From positions 1 through 37,964 of the IMG/VR virus record IMGVR_UViG_3300011115_000146: 37,964 bases of DNA; one strand, given 5' to 3'. This document shows positions 27,565-37,964 of the stretch, in pieces. Positions within the stretch are counted from its first letter, which is position 1, and every line of letters starts with the position of its first letter. This DNA is from a virus. The notes below the pieces were generated by a model. The model saw only the letters and a list, made by a program, of their open reading frames with translations. It was not told where the DNA came from and ran no database searches. A program made the translations under genes and the position numbers.

Positions 27565-27735
27565 GTGACAACAGACGAAGCGGTGCAGTTTTTCGGCGGG
27601 CTGAAGAAGCTAGCCGACGCCTTGGGGGTGTGGCCCCAAGTGATATACAAGTGGGGCGAACGACCACCAATGGCACGCCAGTACGAGATACAAGTCAAAA
27701 CAGAGGGGAAGTTGCGTGCAGATGAGCAAACTTGA
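27565..27735 (+). CDS. cro: Cro-like transcriptional repressor
   Basis: I choose the GTG at 27565, preceded by GGAGTGG and giving 56 residues; an ATG at 27529 would add 12. The HTH runs 'EAVQFFGGLKKLADALGVWPQVIYKWGERPP' and is followed by 'ARQYEIQVKTEGKL'. This is the same order as in P22 and other lambdoid Cro proteins ('HFG-QRAVAKALGIS--AVSQWKE-IP---AYRLE--T-G-L'). It would bind operators in the divergent 27453-27564 region and control early transcription. No CI partner is encoded nearby. The 3' end overlaps the primase gene. Confidence 0.75.
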   Translation: MTTDEAVQFFGGLKKLADALGVWPQVIYKWGERPPMARQYEIQVKTEGKLRADEQT

Positions 27736-29587
27736 AGCGGCCCTGCGTTACGCAGAATGGGGCTGGGCGGTGCTGCCCGTAGTGCCCAACGGCAAGATCC
27801 CTGCTACCGCCCACGGGGTCAACGACGCCACCATAGACCCAGAACAGATCAAGCGCTGGTGGGCGCAGAACCCAAACCTGAACATCGGTATCGCCTGCGG
27901 TGGCGCCAGCGGGATCGTAGTGTTTGACATTGACCCACGCAACGGCGGTGATCAGAATTGGGAACGCTGGGTGTCCGATCACGGGCCGATGCCAGACGGG
28001 GCAATGGCTCTGACCGCAGGCGGTGGACAACATTACCTGACGTTGCACGCAGATGGCGTCAGATCGTGCAAGTTAGCAGACGGCATTGACCTTTTGTCGG
28101 ACGGTCGCTACTTCTTGGTCTACCCGTCTAGCATTGAGGACCGCGCTTACGAATGGGAAGCCTCAAGCGATCCGTTTGATGGTGTAGCACCGGCCAAGAT
28201 CCCAGACCCGTGGCTTCCCCACTTGGGCCAGCGTAAGGTCGTACCAACTACCAACGGCGATCTGATCCAAGGCAACCGTAACGATGGCTTGACCAGCCTT
28301 GCCGGGGCTATGCGCTCGTTCGGCATGACGGAAGCCGAGATTCTGGCCGCGATCAGTGTGGCAAATGAGACACGCTGCGAAATACCATTACCATCTAGTG
28401 AGATCAAACAGATCGCTCGGTCCGTCTCACGCTATGAGCCTGACGGGGATGTGGCCGCAAGTACGGCAATCGGTTCAGAGGCCGCAGACGCTCTTTTGGC
28501 AGAGCCGCCCACATCAGACTACTTCCTGACCCGCGCAACCTCCTTCTTGGGCCAACCAAGCCCCGTGCCGTGGATTGTGAAGGGTTGGTTGCCAGCATAC
28601 GCCACAACCATGATGTACGGCGAGTCAGGCGTGGGTAAGACTTTCGTTGCGCTAGACATGGCTTGCTCAATCGCGGCAGGGCTACCTTGGGGCGGTATCA
28701 AAACCAAACCCGGAATCGTGGTGTATCTAGCCGGTGAAGGTAACTACGGGATGCGGCAAAGGGTTGCTAGTTGGTGCAAGCGTAACAATCTAACGAGCCT
28801 GGACAATCTTTTGATCAGTAACAAGGCGATTGATATGGATGCCGCAGGCGCAGCAACGCAGGTCATCGCAGCAGTCCGGGCATTAACGTCCGAGCCAGTT
28901 GCGCTGGTCAACATTGACACCCTGAATAATCATATGAGCGGGGATGAGAATAGCGCCAAAGATACAAGGGCGATGATCAATGCTTGTAACATCGTCTCAA
29001 TGGCCCTGAGTGCCACAACAATGTTGATCCACCACCTAGGGCACAACAGCGAGGCAAAACAGCGTGCACGAGGTTCTAGCGCGTGGCGCGGGGCATTGGA
29101 TGCCAGTATTTTGGTTCACGGCAAGACCAATGAGATTACGGTTAGTTGCACCAAGCAAAAAGACGCGCCAGAACCAGCGGATCGCTATGGTTGTCTCAGT
29201 CCAGTGGATCTGGGGTGGCAGGATGAGGATGGGTTGCCGCTGCCTGGTGCAGTCTTTGAGATGTTCCAAGAGGGCGATCTGCGTATGCCTACTCCAAAAG
29301 AGGATAAGTTGGCAGAGCATAAGATCAACTTGGAGCGGGCGTGGTTCGTTGGCGGGGCCGAAGTCGTCAACAACCAGCCGTACATCGCTCGAGAGGCATT
29401 TAAGACGTTTTTGCTTGAGCAGGGTGTCAAAACCACAGTGGTCGATCAGCACCTGAAAGCGTCAGCCAGGACGGGGATGATCGTTAAGGATCTGACCGAT
29501 GCCAAAATAATAGGCAAGCAGGACAAGGGTTGGGTAGTTTTGGATCGGGAGTTGGGATCTAAACTCATTCTAAAAGTTAGTCCGTAA
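27722..29587 (+). CDS. Prim-Pol primase fused to RepA/DnaB-like helicase
   Basis: A 621-residue protein (ATG at 27722; a GTG at 27716 is possible). The N-terminal domain is a bifunctional primase-polymerase: 'GWAVLPVVPNGKIPAT' (14-29), the metal-binding FDIDPR (68-73), GGGQHY (100-105) and GIDLLSDGRYFLVYPSS. A PriCT-like helical domain follows (about 180-240, 'GNRNDGLTSLAGAMRSFGMTEAEILAA'). The C-terminal AAA_25 ATPase has Walker A GESGVGKT (300-307) and Walker B ALVNIDT (394-400), then 'LIHHLGHNSEAKQRARGSSAWRGALDASI'. It would prime and unwind at the phage origin, probably the adjacent repeat array. Confidence 0.9.
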   Translation: MSKLEAALRYAEWGWAVLPVVPNGKIPATAHGVNDATIDPEQIKRWWAQNPNLNIGIACGGASGIVVFDIDPRNGGDQNWERWVSDHGPMPDGAMALTAGGGQHYLTLHADGVRSCKLADGIDLLSDGRYFLVYPSSIEDRAYEWEASSDPFDGVAPAKIPDPWLPHLGQRKVVPTTNGDLIQGNRNDGLTSLAGAMRSFGMTEAEILAAISVANETRCEIPLPSSEIKQIARSVSRYEPDGDVAASTAIGSEAADALLAEPPTSDYFLTRATSFLGQPSPVPWIVKGWLPAYATTMMYGESGVGKTFVALDMACSIAAGLPWGGIKTKPGIVVYLAGEGNYGMRQRVASWCKRNNLTSLDNLLISNKAIDMDAAGAATQVIAAVRALTSEPVALVNIDTLNNHMSGDENSAKDTRAMINACNIVSMALSATTMLIHHLGHNSEAKQRARGSSAWRGALDASILVHGKTNEITVSCTKQKDAPEPADRYGCLSPVDLGWQDEDGLPLPGAVFEMFQEGDLRMPTPKEDKLAEHKINLERAWFVGGAEVVNNQPYIAREAFKTFLLEQGVKTTVVDQHLKASARTGMIVKDLTDAKIIGKQDKGWVVLDRELGSKLILKVSP

Positions 29588-29707
29588 CAACCGTAACACG
29601 CCGTAACACGGCGTAACATGTTACGGCGGCAAAGGCGTTTTTACCGTAACGTAACGTAACACACTCTTAGAGTGTTACGGTGTTACGGTACGATGCGGGC
29701 CGTTACG
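29583..29707. repeat. CGTAAC/GTTACG iteron-like array (candidate origin or operator)
   Basis: Seven CGTAAC (starting 29583, 29592, 29602, 29612, 29645, 29650, 29655) and four GTTACG (29620, 29674, 29682, 29702) lie within 125 bases. The first four direct copies are spaced 9-10 bp. CGTAACATGTTACG at 29612-29625 is a perfect palindrome, and ACACTCT-T-AGAGTGT at 29661-29675 is a second dyad. The array occupies most of the 158-bp gap between primase and methyltransferase genes. Initiator binding fits, and so does a repressor operator. Confidence 0.75.
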
Positions 29708-29745
29708 GTGATGTAGGATGTCGCATTGAGGAGAAAATCGGTAAC

Positions 29746-31032
29746 ATGAAAAAAATTAGTATGAATCCAGCAGATCAGGTGGAAAAGTGGGATATTGAAA
29801 AGTTGATCCCCTACGCGAGAAATGCCAGGACGCACTCAGATGAGCAGGTTGGGCAGATCGCTGCTTCGATCCGTGAGTGGGGGTGGACGACACCTGTGCT
29901 AGTAGATGAGGATGGAGGGATCATCGCGGGACACGGCAGGACGATGGCAGCAAAACGTCTTGGGATGCGTGAAGTGCCTGTGATGGTTGCTCGAGGATGG
30001 AGTGACGAGAAGAAACGAGCCTACGTCCTGGCCGACAACAAGTTGGCTATTAACGCTGGTTGGGACGAGTCAATGTTGGCCCTAGAACTAAAAGAACTGG
30101 GCGAGACAGGGTTTGACCTAGATTTGACTGGTTTTTCCTTAGATGAGATCAATGCGCTCACGCCAATCGAGGTGGAACCGGGGCTAACCGATGAGGATGC
30201 CGTTCCAGAGGCCCCAGATGAGCCTACAACGCGACTTGGCGACATTTGGATACTAGGACACCACCGACTGATGTGCGGCGATTCTACGTCGATTGACGCG
30301 GTTGAGAAATTGATGAATGGATCGCTTGCCGATCTTGTCGTTTCCGATCCTCCTTACGGAGTCAGCTACGCAGATAAAAACAAAAGTTTGAATTCGGTGA
30401 ACAAGGGGAATCGCAACCAAACTCCAATTAAAAATGATCATCTGAAAGATGGCGCATTGGAAGATTTTTTTCTTGGTGCTTTTTCCGCAATTTTCATTGC
30501 AATAAAACCCGGCGCTCCATTTTACATTTTTGCTCCTCAAGGTGGTGAGCAAATGATGATGATGATGATGATGATGCAAAAAGCGAGCCTGCCGGTGCGT
30601 CATGAGTTAATTTGGGTAAAAAATAATCACGTTTTAGGAAGGGCTGATTACCATTACAAGCACGAACCTGTTTTGTATGGATGGAAAGAAGGCGCTGGTC
30701 ATCCGTGGTATGGAGAAAGAAGCAAGTTTAGTATTTGGAATGTAAACAGACCAAATCAATCAAAACTTCATCCAACTATGAAACCTGTTGAATTGTTGGA
30801 AATCCCAATTAACAACAGTAGCAAAGGGCAAGACGTTGTGCTCGACCTATTCGGCGGCTCAGGATCTACGCTCATTGCTTGCGAGAAAACAGCACGGCAA
30901 TGCAGGATGATGGAACTTGACCCCAAGTATTGTGATGTGATAATTAAACGATGGCAGGATTACACAGGCAATCAAGCAATCCATGCAAAAAACTCCAAAA
31001 CATTCAATGAGTTAGCATCGAATGGAAGTTGA
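29746..31032 (+). CDS. ParB-like domain fused to beta-class DNA methyltransferase
   Basis: I choose the ATG at 29746, after GAGGAG. The protein has 428 residues. The N-terminal ParB/sulfiredoxin-like domain covers about 14-110 ('LIPYARNARTHSDEQVGQIAASIREWGWTTPVLVDEDGGIIAGHGR'). Then comes the methylase with DPPY (201-204) ahead of FGGSGST (369-375), the motif order of beta-class N6-adenine or N4-cytosine enzymes. Residues 270-277 are eight consecutive Met encoded by (ATG)8. The middle (30380-30830) is clearly more AT-rich than both ends. Such fusions in phages protect DNA against restriction or mark it for replication or packaging. The target sequence is not predictable from here. Confidence 0.87.
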   Translation: MKKISMNPADQVEKWDIEKLIPYARNARTHSDEQVGQIAASIREWGWTTPVLVDEDGGIIAGHGRTMAAKRLGMREVPVMVARGWSDEKKRAYVLADNKLAINAGWDESMLALELKELGETGFDLDLTGFSLDEINALTPIEVEPGLTDEDAVPEAPDEPTTRLGDIWILGHHRLMCGDSTSIDAVEKLMNGSLADLVVSDPPYGVSYADKNKSLNSVNKGNRNQTPIKNDHLKDGALEDFFLGAFSAIFIAIKPGAPFYIFAPQGGEQMMMMMMMMQKASLPVRHELIWVKNNHVLGRADYHYKHEPVLYGWKEGAGHPWYGERSKFSIWNVNRPNQSKLHPTMKPVELLEIPINNSSKGQDVVLDLFGGSGSTLIACEKTARQCRMMELDPKYCDVIIKRWQDYTGNQAIHAKNSKTFNELASNGS

Positions 31033-31564
31033 AACGCAACAACAACAAAATCGTCACGGTGGTGCGAGGGAGAATGCGGGACGCCCCCGCTTTGAGCCTA
31101 CGGACGAAGAACGCAAGCAGGTTGAGGCAATGGCTGGTTATGGCGTTGCTGAAGCGCACATTGCCGCTTTGATTCGCGGCGGGATTGGCGTTTCGACTTT
31201 GCGTGAACGGTTTAAGGCGAATCTTGAGCAAGGCCGCGCCAAGGCTCACGCAGGAATCGGCAAGACGCTTTATCAGAAGGCTATGGCTGGCGACGTGGCA
31301 AGCCTGATCTGGTGGACGAAGACGCAGATGCGCTGGACCGAAGCACCGCGCCAGATCGAGGTGAGCGGGAATATTTCCATCACCGACGCGCTTGCCCAGG
31401 CGCAAGCACGGCTAATCGAGGCTGAGATCGTGGAGATGGACACGCCGCTGCTTGGCGTAACAGATGCCGTTACGGTTGACGTTACGCCTGTTACGGATGC
31501 GGTTACGATGGGAACAACGATGGGAACGGGAGTCGAACACCCCGCAAACCCGCATGAATCCTAG
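31022..31564 (+). CDS. terS: Terminase small subunit (putative)
   Basis: A 180-residue protein overlapping the methyltransferase end by 11 nt. The basic 'GGARENAGRPRFEPTDEERKQVEAMAGYGVAEAHIAALIRGGIGVSTLRERFKANLEQGRAKAHAGIGKTLYQKAMAGDVASLIWWTKTQMRW' (13-104) is an HTH followed by an oligomerisation helix. I recognise this pattern from TerS-like proteins of aquatic phages. TerS binds the pac site and brings TerL to DNA. The C-terminal tail (145-180) is Val-Thr-rich and its DNA carries five copies of the CGTAAC/GTTACG word. The position two genes before TerL supports the call. Confidence 0.75.
   Translation: MEVETQQQQNRHGGARENAGRPRFEPTDEERKQVEAMAGYGVAEAHIAALIRGGIGVSTLRERFKANLEQGRAKAHAGIGKTLYQKAMAGDVASLIWWTKTQMRWTEAPRQIEVSGNISITDALAQAQARLIEAEIVEMDTPLLGVTDAVTVDVTPVTDAVTMGTTMGTGVEHPANPHES
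31456..31507. repeat. Second CGTAAC/GTTACG cluster inside terS
   Basis: One CGTAAC (31456) and four GTTACG (31469, 31481, 31490, 31502) lie within 52 bases of the terS 3' end. Each is read as a Val-Thr dipeptide, so the protein has a VT repeat. The word is the same as in the array at 29583-29707. P22 carries its pac site inside the small terminase gene, so this is a candidate packaging site. Confidence 0.6.
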
Positions 31565-34325: not shown

Positions 34326-36490
34326 TGTCTGACTACACTGGTATTAACGCTGTCGGCAACGTCGCACTTGGGGGTAAACCCTTAAAGAGCGACTCAGATG
34401 TGTTGTCAACAGCGCGGGATCGCCTGTCGATGGCAATTTCGGCGTATTCCGAGAGCAGGGAAGACGAGTTAGACGATCTGCGGTTCTACGCAGGCAGTCC
34501 AGATAACCAGTGGCAGTGGCCGGCAGATGTGCTGGCGACCCGTGGTGCGGTGCAGGGTCAGACGATTAACGCGCGGCCATGCTTGACGATTAACAAGCTG
34601 CCGCAGCACGTCCACCAGATTACCAACGACCAGCGTCAGAACCGGCCTAGCGTCAAGGTCATCCCTGTTGATGATAATGCTGACGTTGAGGTTGCCGAAG
34701 TTTTTAACGGCATGGTGCGTCACATTGAGTACATCTCTGACGCAGATGTAGCCTACGACACGGCGTGCGAGAACCAAGTCGCCTACGGCGAGGGGTACAT
34801 CCGGGTTCTGACCGAGTATTGCGACGACAATACGTTCGATCAGGACATCAAGATTGCGCGGGTGAGGAACAGTTTCTCGGTCTACATGGACCCGCTGATC
34901 CAAGATCCGTGCGGCAGCGATGCTGAGTGGTGTTTTATCACCGAGGACTTGTCTAAAGCCGAATACGCACGGCTTTTCCCCAACGCTTCCCCGCTTTCCA
35001 CGCTGGAAACGCTGGGTGTAGGGGATCAGAACCTAAGCCAGTGGCTAAATACGGATACGATCCGTATTGCTGAGTATTTTTACTGCGAATACGACACGCA
35101 GACGTTGAATTTGTACCCTGGCAACGTGACTGCGTTCCAAGGGACGCCGGAAGACAAAGAGTTGCGGGCGGTTTACGGCAAGCCAAAGAAGTCGCGCCAA
35201 GCGGATCGCAAGAAGATCTGCTGGACAAAGATAAACGGCTACGAAATCCTTGAAAAGCAGGAATGGGCGGGTAAGTTCATCCCTGTTGTTCGGGTAATTG
35301 GCAACGAATACGAGGTTGAGGGCCGGATTTACATCAGCGGGTTGGTGCGTAACGCCAAAGATGCCCAACGGATGTACAACTATTGGACTAGCCAAGAGGC
35401 AGAAATGCTGGCGCTGGCGCCAAAGGCTCCATTTATTGGTTATGGCGGTCAGTTTGAGGGGTATGAGACCCAGTGGAAGACTGCAAACACGCAGAATTGG
35501 CCGTATTTGGAGGTCAATCCTGATGTGACGGACGGTCAGGGCGCGGTTTTGCCGTTGCCCCAACGTGCGCAGCCCCCTATGGCGTCATCTGGTTTGATGC
35601 AAGCTAAAGTTGGCGCTTCTGAAGACATTAAGTCTTCAACTGGGCAGTACAACGCCTCGCTAGGCATGACTTCTAACGAACGCTCTGGCAGGGCTATTCT
35701 GGCCCGTCAGCGTGAGGGTGATGTTGGTACTTATCATTACCAAGACAACCTAGCGCGGGCTGTTCGCCATGTTGGGCGCCAGTTGGTCGATATGATCCCC
35801 AAAATCTACGACACGCAGCGCATCGCTCGCATTATTGGTCTGGATGGCGAGACCAAGATGGTCAAGATTGACCCGATGCAGCAAGAACCAGTGCGTAAGA
35901 TCCAGAACCAAGAAGGGGTTGTGATCGAAAAGGTCTACAACCCGTCTGTTGGTAAATATGACGTGGTGGTTGCGACGGGTCCAGGGTACGCTACAAAGCG
36001 TCAGGAAGCGCTGGAAGCAATGGCCCAACTGCTACAGGGTAACCCGCAACTGTGGACCGTGGCTGGCGACTTGTTTGTCAAGAACATGGATTGGCCTGGT
36101 GCTCAAGAGATGGCAAAACGGTTTGCCAAGACGATTGACCCCAAACTTATGGGTGAAGCCGAGGACAATCCAGCCTTGCAAGCCGCTAACCAGCAGATGC
36201 AAGCAATGGCGGCAGAACTGGATCAGTTGCACCAGATGCTTCAAAATGTCGGCAAATCCATGGAAGCGCAGGACATGGAGCGCAAGGATTACGAAGCTAA
36301 GATCAAGGCGTTTGACGCTGAAACCAAACGCATCAGCGCGGTTCAGGCGGGTATGTCAGAGCAGCAGATCCAAGACATTGCGATGGGCGTGGTGGCTGCG
36401 GCTATGGAATCACAGAGTATGCTAATGCCGGAAATGCGTGAGGGACCTACGCAAATGGAAATGATGCCTGATCAAGGGGTTATGCAATGA
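34325..36490 (+). CDS. Portal protein, complete (P22 gp1-like)
   Basis: I choose the ATG at 34325, coupled to the previous stop; a GTG at 34319 is possible. The protein has 721 residues, close to P22 gp1 (725). 'ESREDELDDLRFYAGSPDNQW' (about 42-62), 'RPCLTINKLPQHVHQITNDQRQNRPSVKVIPVDD', 'YISDADVAYDTACENQVAYGEGYIRV' and 'ERSGRAILARQREGDVGTYHYQDNLARAVRHVGRQLVDMIP' are hallmarks of P22-type portals. The C-terminal helix-rich tail (about 600-721) would form the barrel. It is a component of both packaging motor and virion. The 3' part is repeated, diverged, at 1-1416. Confidence 0.92.
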   Translation: MSDYTGINAVGNVALGGKPLKSDSDVLSTARDRLSMAISAYSESREDELDDLRFYAGSPDNQWQWPADVLATRGAVQGQTINARPCLTINKLPQHVHQITNDQRQNRPSVKVIPVDDNADVEVAEVFNGMVRHIEYISDADVAYDTACENQVAYGEGYIRVLTEYCDDNTFDQDIKIARVRNSFSVYMDPLIQDPCGSDAEWCFITEDLSKAEYARLFPNASPLSTLETLGVGDQNLSQWLNTDTIRIAEYFYCEYDTQTLNLYPGNVTAFQGTPEDKELRAVYGKPKKSRQADRKKICWTKINGYEILEKQEWAGKFIPVVRVIGNEYEVEGRIYISGLVRNAKDAQRMYNYWTSQEAEMLALAPKAPFIGYGGQFEGYETQWKTANTQNWPYLEVNPDVTDGQGAVLPLPQRAQPPMASSGLMQAKVGASEDIKSSTGQYNASLGMTSNERSGRAILARQREGDVGTYHYQDNLARAVRHVGRQLVDMIPKIYDTQRIARIIGLDGETKMVKIDPMQQEPVRKIQNQEGVVIEKVYNPSVGKYDVVVATGPGYATKRQEALEAMAQLLQGNPQLWTVAGDLFVKNMDWPGAQEMAKRFAKTIDPKLMGEAEDNPALQAANQQMQAMAAELDQLHQMLQNVGKSMEAQDMERKDYEAKIKAFDAETKRISAVQAGMSEQQIQDIAMGVVAAAMESQSMLMPEMREGPTQMEMMPDQGVMQ

Positions 36491-36849
36491 AGTGCGCGGA
36501 TTTTGTAGGTCTGCTATTCTTAGGGCGTGACGTAGCGCATTCGGTTCATCTTAATACCAGAAGCTACAGCAAGCACAAAGCGCTACAGAAGTTCTACGAA
36601 CTGATCATTGAAGCGGCAGATGATTTTGCCGAAGCGTACCAAGGTCGGCATGGCTTGATCGGCCCAATCACGTTGATGACTGCCAAGAAAACGACTAACA
36701 TCATAGAATTCTTGGAAGACCAACTGAAGGAAATCGAGGCTTGTCGGTACGAAGTTGTGGACAAGACGGATATGTCTTTGCAGCAGTTGATCGACAACAT
36801 CATCGAAATCTATCTCAGAACCCTCTACAAACTGCGCTTTTTGGCGTGA
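36487..36849 (+). CDS. Conserved phage helical protein, right copy
   Basis: The protein has 120 residues and differs from the left copy (1413-1775) at one position that I can see (Ile for Val near residue 108). It shows the same 4-nt overlap with the portal stop. Many silent differences in DNA show that the two copies come from different lineages. In the closed genome this is the resident copy. Confidence 0.7.
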   Translation: MKCADFVGLLFLGRDVAHSVHLNTRSYSKHKALQKFYELIIEAADDFAEAYQGRHGLIGPITLMTAKKTTNIIEFLEDQLKEIEACRYEVVDKTDMSLQQLIDNIIEIYLRTLYKLRFLA

Positions 36850-36856
36850 GGTAATT

Positions 36857-37132
36857 ATGGCTGCGACGTACAAATATCTAACCGCCTCGGCCAACGTGAA
36901 GACGATGGCGGGCAAGCTAAAGGGCATTTTCGTGTCTGCCGCCAGTAGTACGCCTACGATTACGGTGTACAACAGCGAAGCCGCAACGACTAGCGACACG
37001 ATTGTTGGTGTGTTTACGCCAACTGGTGCGACCAGCTATGTGTTCACCGGCGACGAAGGTGGTGTGTACTTTAGCTCTGGTCTGTACATTGTGATCAGCG
37101 GAACTGTCGCTGCAACGGTGTTTTTCGAGTAA
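36857..37132 (+). CDS. Small beta-rich virion-associated protein, right copy
   Basis: The protein has 91 residues and carries several conservative changes relative to 1783-2058 (for example Thr for Pro at about 18, Ser for Gly near 32, Glu for Ala near 43, Val for Thr near 66). It has the same GAGGTAATT ribosome-binding site and the same spacing to neighbours. Confidence 0.65.
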   Translation: MAATYKYLTASANVKTMAGKLKGIFVSAASSTPTITVYNSEAATTSDTIVGVFTPTGATSYVFTGDEGGVYFSSGLYIVISGTVAATVFFE

Positions 37133-37135
37133 AGC

Positions 37136-37964
37136 ATGGCAAATACCACGATTTCAGCATTACCGTCAGCGACTACCCCGCTCGCGGGTACTGAAGTCGT
37201 TCCAATTGTCCAGAGCGGCACGACCAAGAAAGTTGCGGTCAGTAACCTAATTAGCCTGACCACCACTGGAACCAGTGGTGCGGCTACGTTTGTTAATAGC
37301 GTTCTCAATATTCCGCAGTATTCTGGTGGTGGTGGATCTGGCACTGTAACGAGCGTTGGTCTTTCTGCACCTGCGTTTTTGTCGGTTACGGGAAGCCCGG
37401 TTACGACATCTGGAACGCTTGCGCTTTCGTATTCTGGCACTGCGCTTCCCGTTGCCAACGGAGGTACGGGTCAAACGACGGCAAACGCTGCGCTAAATGG
37501 TCTGTTGCCATCTCAGACTGGTCAAAACGGCAAAGTTTTGTCTACTGACGGGGCAAATACAACTTGGACTGCTGTAACCGGCACGGGTACGGTTACGAGC
37601 GTGGCAATGTCCGTTCCGGCATTTTTGTCGGTTACCGGGTCGCCGATTACCGCTAGCGGCACTTTGGCCGTTTCGTTGTCTGGCACGGCTTTGCCGGTTG
37701 CTAATGGCGGCACTGGCGCAACTACAGCAACTGCTGCGTTTGATGCGCTTGCCCCATCGCAGACGGCCAACTCTGGCAAATACCTGACAACCAACGGCAC
37801 AACAACGTCTTGGGCCACGGTGTCTGGCGGCGGTTCTCCCGCTGGTGCAGACACGCAAGTTCAGTACAACAGCGGCGGGACTTCTTTTGGTGCTTCGTCA
37901 GCGTTTACGTTTACTAGTGCTACTGGACTGGTAACCGCTACTGGTTTTGCAGGTGCGCTTAACG
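37136..37964 (+). CDS. Tail fibre protein, N-terminal part (cut by contig end)
   Basis: The frame is open to the last base. It aligns with codons 1-251 of the fibre gene at 2062-4281 but carries 25 extra residues after the shared 'TKKVAVS' (NLISLTTTGTSGAATFVNSV... segment, residues about 37-61). The final 127 bases are identical to 2689-2815. If the ends are joined there, the full fibre continues from 2816 to 4281 and would be 25 residues longer than the left version. Confidence 0.82.
   Translation, partial: MANTTISALPSATTPLAGTEVVPIVQSGTTKKVAVSNLISLTTTGTSGAATFVNSVLNIPQYSGGGGSGTVTSVGLSAPAFLSVTGSPVTTSGTLALSYSGTALPVANGGTGQTTANAALNGLLPSQTGQNGKVLSTDGANTTWTAVTGTGTVTSVAMSVPAFLSVTGSPITASGTLAVSLSGTALPVANGGTGATTATAAFDALAPSQTANSGKYLTTNGTTTSWATVSGGGSPAGADTQVQYNSGGTSFGASSAFTFTSATGLVTATGFAGALN
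37838..37964. repeat. 127-base exact repeat of 2689-2815 at the contig end
   Basis: It is identical to 2689-2815 over 127 bases and ends at the last base of the window. Joining the two copies gives a closed unit of 35,149 bases (2816-37964). Confidence 0.9.

Follow-up and report, generated by a model that had tools for sequence, protein, structure and literature searches.

A putative replication origin with lineage-specific iterons 3' of the AAA_25 primase-helicase gene of a metagenomic phage

Replication origins located 3' of an initiator-helicase gene are already known. In SaPIs and PICIs, two iteron sets lie immediately 3' of the initiator gene, and the SaPI Rep recognises its iterons through a C-terminal domain (PMC6092414, PMC7581432). 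For pRN1, an essential element directly 3' of the primase-helicase gene (ORF904) is described as the proposed origin, and in the same text iteron reading, unwinding and hairpin priming are split among different proteins in RSF1010 (RepA/RepB'/RepC, oriV and ssi hairpins; PMC4234260). In the record of phage P4, crr and its type 1 repeats are annotated immediately downstream of the alpha gene, with a second array elsewhere, and the record of Streptococcus phage Sfi21 annotates an origin directly 3' of the primase gene. Here, an array of short repeats in a comparable position was analysed in a viral stretch of 37,964 nt (IMG/VR record IMGVR_UViG_3300011115_000146, the window). Judged from the sequence comparisons below, this array is very probably the replication origin of the phage or an obligatory initiator-binding site.

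The array occupies positions 29583-29707 and holds 11 copies of CGTAAC or GTTACG (hexamer count, both orientations), which agrees with the number that an earlier note on this DNA had given for these 125 bases. Plus-strand copies start at 29583, 29592, 29602, 29612, 29645, 29650 and 29655, and inverted copies at 29620, 29674, 29682 and 29702. The left iterons (29583-29617, plus strand) are the first four copies, at intervals of 9, 10 and 10 bp, as expected from the 9-10-bp phase claimed earlier. A 14-bp palindrome and a second dyad had also been reported, and both were found. The palindrome CGTAACATGTTACG (29612-29625) is perfect and contains the sole inverted copy of the left-hand side (29620, minus strand); a single inverted copy left of the dyad is common among relatives. 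Three overlapping plus-strand iterons, CGTAACGTAACGTAAC (29645-29660), stand immediately left of the second dyad, ACACTCTTAGAGTGT (29661-29675), which extends to a 25-bp CGTAAC...GTTACG element, the central dyad CGTAACACACTCTTAGAGTGTTACG (29655-29679), with the core CTTAG. The right iterons (29674-29707; starts 29674, 29682 and 29702) are in reverse orientation. As single-stranded DNA, the stretch 29645-29692 is predicted to fold with -14.1 kcal/mol (z -3.9). The hexamer occurs 42 times in the whole window, against a mean of 15.9 and a largest count of 26 in 100 shuffles; this mean corresponds to about one copy per 2.4 kb, near the chance rate of about one per 2 kb assumed in the note. The densest 125 bp in 300 first-order Markov sequences of window size held at most three copies, versus 11 in the array. 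The note had also proposed looking for an inflection in cumulative GC skew at the array; none was seen there, and the minimum lies instead at about 27 kb, where two transcription units diverge.

The gene before the array (27716-29587, plus strand) encodes a 623-aa primase-helicase, the proposed initiator. According to Pfam, PHROGs and predicted structure models it carries a Prim-Pol domain (residues 9-164), PriCT_1 (179-243), an AAA_25 helicase (269-445) and a winged helix (about 530-623). It is directly preceded by a P22_Cro-like gene, and a ParB_N/N6_N4_Mtase gene lies downstream of the array, before a terS-like gene. Among PDB sequences, RSF1010 RepA (1g8y) alone matches with E<=0.001 (E 1.7e-7, profile positions 284-463). 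The match is to the helicase half, whose classification as a RepA-like RecA-fold hexameric helicase is by sequence match only (1g8y, as above; AAA_25 in Pfam, E 6.4e-38). No Pfam match to DUF5906, VapE or DUF927 was found in this protein. The last 98 residues (526-623; 29291-29584, plus strand), proposed as the iteron reader from their AlphaFold2 model and from a natural swap with the array, are modelled in a winged-helix layout (mean pLDDT 90.7). Most structural matches of this domain are winged-helix proteins, at intermediate scores, so that the assignment is to a fold class and not to a family. No structural match reached E<=0.001 in Foldseek or Z>=8 in VIA-align, and P4 alpha was absent among the matches listed.

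Like the PICI/SaPI origins, the window has its two iteron sets immediately 3' of the initiator gene, with the TAA stop codon (29585-29587) falling within the first copy. It differs from the systems described in those papers in having a RepA-type AAA_25 helicase instead of Rep helicases of the SF3/D5 or DUF927 type, and in having a dyad between the sets instead of an AT-rich melting site; the AT fraction around the dyad is 0.49. P4 has a similar layout, one array following the primase-helicase gene directly and a second lying elsewhere. However, the array 3' of the P4 gene is crr, the annotated origin of P4 lies elsewhere, and the likeness is one of layout. Iteron reading, unwinding and priming, which are divided among the RSF1010 proteins, would in the window be combined in a single protein, with short iterons. 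The pRN1 system differs in its 100-nt stem-loop and SF3 helicase (PMC4234260). The Sfi21 origin stretch contains nine copies of AGTAAC, which has the core GTAAC in common with the word of the window. On the best reading, an origin in the window would function in the manner of the PICI/SaPI origins and of P4 crr/ori, using a helicase of the RepA type. Such an origin, with interchangeable words, would be a variant of the known 3' arrangement; no description of a phage origin of this type, with interchangeable words and a CT(A/T)1-3AG dyad, was found in the open-access literature searched.

To determine how well the array is conserved, 57 loci of close relatives were compared, of which 53 were testable, the remaining four contigs stopping inside the primase gene. 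The array is present in 53/53 (at least nine copies in 49, six to eight in four, two of these four being truncated by a contig end). Absence from close relatives, named earlier as grounds for rejecting the origin reading, was thus not observed, and this conservation supports the proposal of an iteron-type origin tied to the primase-helicase gene. Hexamer columns are less variable than other columns (mean entropy 0.22 vs 0.51, p 4e-5). The dyad arms vary among relatives yet mostly stay complementary (ACACTCT/AGAGTGT, ACACCCT/AGGGTGT). The overlap with the stop codon, from which the earlier note concluded that the array had been kept compatible with coding, is real in the window but is not required, since an additional ORF separates gene and array in 6/53 relatives. 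In 18 relatives the commonest base 3' of the hexamer is T, not A, and this change is spread over the copies within the array. Residue 585 was tried as its determinant and rejected: lysine is found in 17/18 T-type and arginine in 36/36 A-type sequences (window included), but R585K is confounded by descent, as other residues track the A-to-T change as well.

More distant homologues mostly carry another word in the same place (36-70% identity). From 80 homologue loci, 15 were excluded (six of the close clade, nine with a match ending at or near a contig end), and the 65 used, with four named phage records and the window, gave 70; four had flanks shorter than 150 bp, leaving 66 loci that span 36 to 100% identity. 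The gene end of L186 was set by hand, and near-identical phages (e.g. L224-L226, L243-L245) are included in all locus counts, dereplication having been applied for the partial Mantel test only (46 kept). In an unbiased search (p<=0.01), the first 350 bp downstream of the gene contained an over-represented hexamer in 61/66 loci, compared with 5/396 control windows. Several short direct repeats beside the initiator gene, as expected of an iteron origin, are therefore seen both in the 11 copies of the window and in these 61 flanks. The words found by lineage include CGTAAC, CGATAC, GGGACA, GGGAAC, GGTAAC, GGTACA, GGTTCA, CGTACC and CCCCTA. Among the five misses, the array is displaced 0.8-1.7 kb downstream in L190, L193 and L249, the value for L259 is borderline (p 0.013), and L257 has no array within 611 bp of available flank. 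A scan of genome contigs gave one weak relative. In L213 an additional GGGACA group, accompanied by a separate dyad, lies about 600 bp downstream of the primase-helicase gene; it may be a duplicate of the origin element or a secondary one.

The layout is shared across these words: iterons, then a dyad centred on CT(A/T)1-3AG, then inverted iterons. Dyads that have this core and whose arms continue for 4 bp or more beyond it are present in 41/66 flanks vs 1/1238 control windows. With the search relaxed to arms of 1 bp, the core is found in 58 loci. There, 116/118 iteron copies to the right of the dyad are inverted, and to its left 272 copies are in the major orientation vs 66 in the opposite one. 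Most of the 25 lineages listed have their iteron slots in the same order (alignment by eye). Two motifs appear as weak constant elements, GGCAARG (21/66 flanks vs 122/1884 control windows) and GATGCGG (12/66 vs 54/1884).

Toprim_3 replaces Prim-Pol in 6/10 homologues scanned, with the origin architecture retained, so the array is independent of the type of primase; the AAA_25 helicase and the C-terminal winged helix persist with either N-terminal primase. A natural swap is seen between L223 and L224-L226, which are 97-99% identical in the N-terminus and 95-96% in the helicase but 42-44% in the winged helix (99%, 96% and 42% for the pair L223/L225), and the array word is CCCCTA in L223 and GGTAAC in L224-L226. 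DNA similarity between L223 and L225 disappears at L223 5701-5989 and resumes just past the array. L241 and L242 have CGTAC and CGGGA at like positions (helicase 95%, winged helix 76% identical). Among close pairs (L190, L193, L249 and L257 excluded), a difference in word goes with lower winged-helix identity, whichever bin of helicase identity is considered (same/different word: 0.53/0.36; 0.67/0.44; 0.79/0.54). The partial Mantel test on the 46 dereplicated loci does not favour the winged helix over the helicase, however: word similarity correlates weakly, and with similar weight, with winged-helix identity given the helicase (0.15, reached by 3/1000 permutations) and with helicase identity given the winged helix (0.20). 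Moreover, the winged helix adjoins the array, so that a single recombination can carry both without proving recognition. The C-terminal winged helix is predicted, with fair though not strong likelihood, to be the domain that recognises the iterons. The Prim-Pol N-terminus, which the earlier note offered as a candidate for binding, fits poorly, because the layout survives TOPRIM substitution and the word changes while the N-terminus stays nearly identical. The ParB-methylase, another binding candidate of that note, is not supported either; it is not a constant neighbour, and various genes follow the array in relatives. On these comparisons the winged helix is the preferred candidate for the origin reader, and neither Cro nor the methylase nor the Prim-Pol N-terminus is.

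Conservation, position, two-sided layout, the dyad, the word changes between lineages and the joint change of winged helix and word are computed observations. A mechanism that would suit them is as follows. Copies of the primase-helicase may bind the CGTAAC iterons via the C-terminal winged helix, and the two opposed iteron sets would load AAA_25 (RepA-type) helicase rings on both sides of the central dyad. The dyad would open, possibly as hairpins, and the fused primase could then prime both strands. We lean slightly towards a modular replicon, in which a fixed scaffold of iteron slots, CT(A/T)1-3AG dyad and inverted slots would carry interchangeable words, each matched to an exchangeable winged helix. 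Winged helix and array would be exchanged together as a single cassette, so that phages almost identical elsewhere would fall into different replication-specificity groups, and the primase module (Prim-Pol or TOPRIM) would be exchangeable separately. To our knowledge, the replication origin of most metagenomic phages is not known, and the layout offers a rule for finding it from sequence alone: 3' of an AAA_25 primase-helicase gene, opposed short words around a CT(A/T)1-3AG dyad. The homologues also supply, from nature, a set of protein domains each paired with its DNA word, which could allow a recognition code to be worked out. With the swap pair L223/L225, origin specificity can be put to a direct test, as can the possibility that related phages exclude each other's replication.

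Other functions of the array were considered against the same data. Iteron initiators frequently act as gene repressors, and this, with the P22_Cro-like gene just upstream of the primase-helicase gene, would suit a transcription operator for the downstream genes, read by Cro, another repressor or the primase-helicase itself. Such an operator is nevertheless quite unlikely: no terminator-like site was found in 29300-30000 and no promoter-like site in the array itself, the genes 3' of the array differ between relatives while the array persists, an ORF is inserted ahead of it in the six relatives mentioned, and the word varies together with the C-terminal part of the primase-helicase. A reading of the hexamer as a site for a host factor or for methylation, with an array unconnected to the primase-helicase, is extremely unlikely. 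The ParB_N/N6_N4_Mtase gene that follows the array in the window and the presence of the same word beside unrelated primases would fit, but the downstream gene is not constant among relatives, and a single fixed host factor cannot account for lineage-specific words within one architecture.

Five more copies, one CGTAAC and four GTTACG, form a second cluster (31456-31507), which was overlooked in the earlier note and lies in the 3' end of the terS-like ORF (31022-31564, plus strand; PHROG terminase small subunit, E 2.8e-9, no Pfam match). Its GTTACG copies are in frame as Val-Thr codons, and Val-Thr is spelled GTTACG 4/5 times in this gene vs 6/57 in the other genes counted in the window. Three to five copies are found downstream of the main array in all 38 relatives listed. 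The origin model alone does not explain this cluster, which is possibly an accessory initiator site, as in P4, or possibly a packaging site. Extended to all CGTAAC clusters, the latter idea, pac or cos sites read by the small terminase, draws on the conservation of the terS cluster across the clade of the window and on at least 14 other loci, among the matches listed, with CGTAAC arrays near a Terminase_2 gene. It is very unlikely, since the main array adjoins the primase-helicase in all lineages examined except one, the lineage-word scan gave no terS-type second cluster outside the clade of the window, and word changes accompany the primase-helicase C-terminus. An origin or obligatory initiator-binding site is thus the preferred reading of the main array.

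Arrays of CGTAAC also occur beside other initiators. A search of viral contigs for CGTAAC triples gave at least 120 matches, as did the reversed-word control, and the count was rejected as proof of generality. Among the matches listed, at least five copies with at least two per orientation were found in 52/117 CGTAAC vs 14/120 control loci. In 20 of the 45 listed both-orientation loci outside the clade of the window (hand count), the array is at or overlapping the 3' end of a primase-helicase gene, and these listed proteins are of the DUF5906 (13), Zn_Ribbon_Prim (5), AAA_25 (1) and VapE (1) types. As the search selected for CGTAAC and the control was equally plentiful, these numbers indicate a layout shared across initiators and do not establish the frequency of the word. 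The opposed CGTAAC sets 3' of DUF5906 primase genes, on terminase-bearing contigs among the matches listed, resemble the PICI/SaPI origin. The CT(A/T)1-3AG dyad core was found in 0/26 of the arrays beside genes of other primase families.

Some CGTAAC groups have other settings. In L167 (10904-10992) and at least 13 further loci of gene cluster c11, groups mostly in the same orientation, often of five to six copies, lie about 100 bp from a Terminase_2 small-terminase gene, upstream of its start in L167, and are possibly a packaging site. Arrays within genes are seen in L112 (1222-1289), L160 (10205-10272) and L078 (7827-7985); weak matches link the L112 protein with a DnaD-like loader and the L078 protein with replication initiation proteins, and these two arrays recall the lambda-type origins located within the initiator gene. 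L099 (7833-7946) has copies inside a 1008-aa ORF. The copies in a collagen-like tail-fibre gene of L139 (1788-2474) are probably coding repeats, a case in which dense DNA words may be mere protein repeats. In the window itself, the contig ends (7-2815 and about 35101-37963) repeat each other with 86-87% DNA identity. Either the genome is circularly permuted and was closed with a copy taken from a different strain, or the assembly is chimeric.
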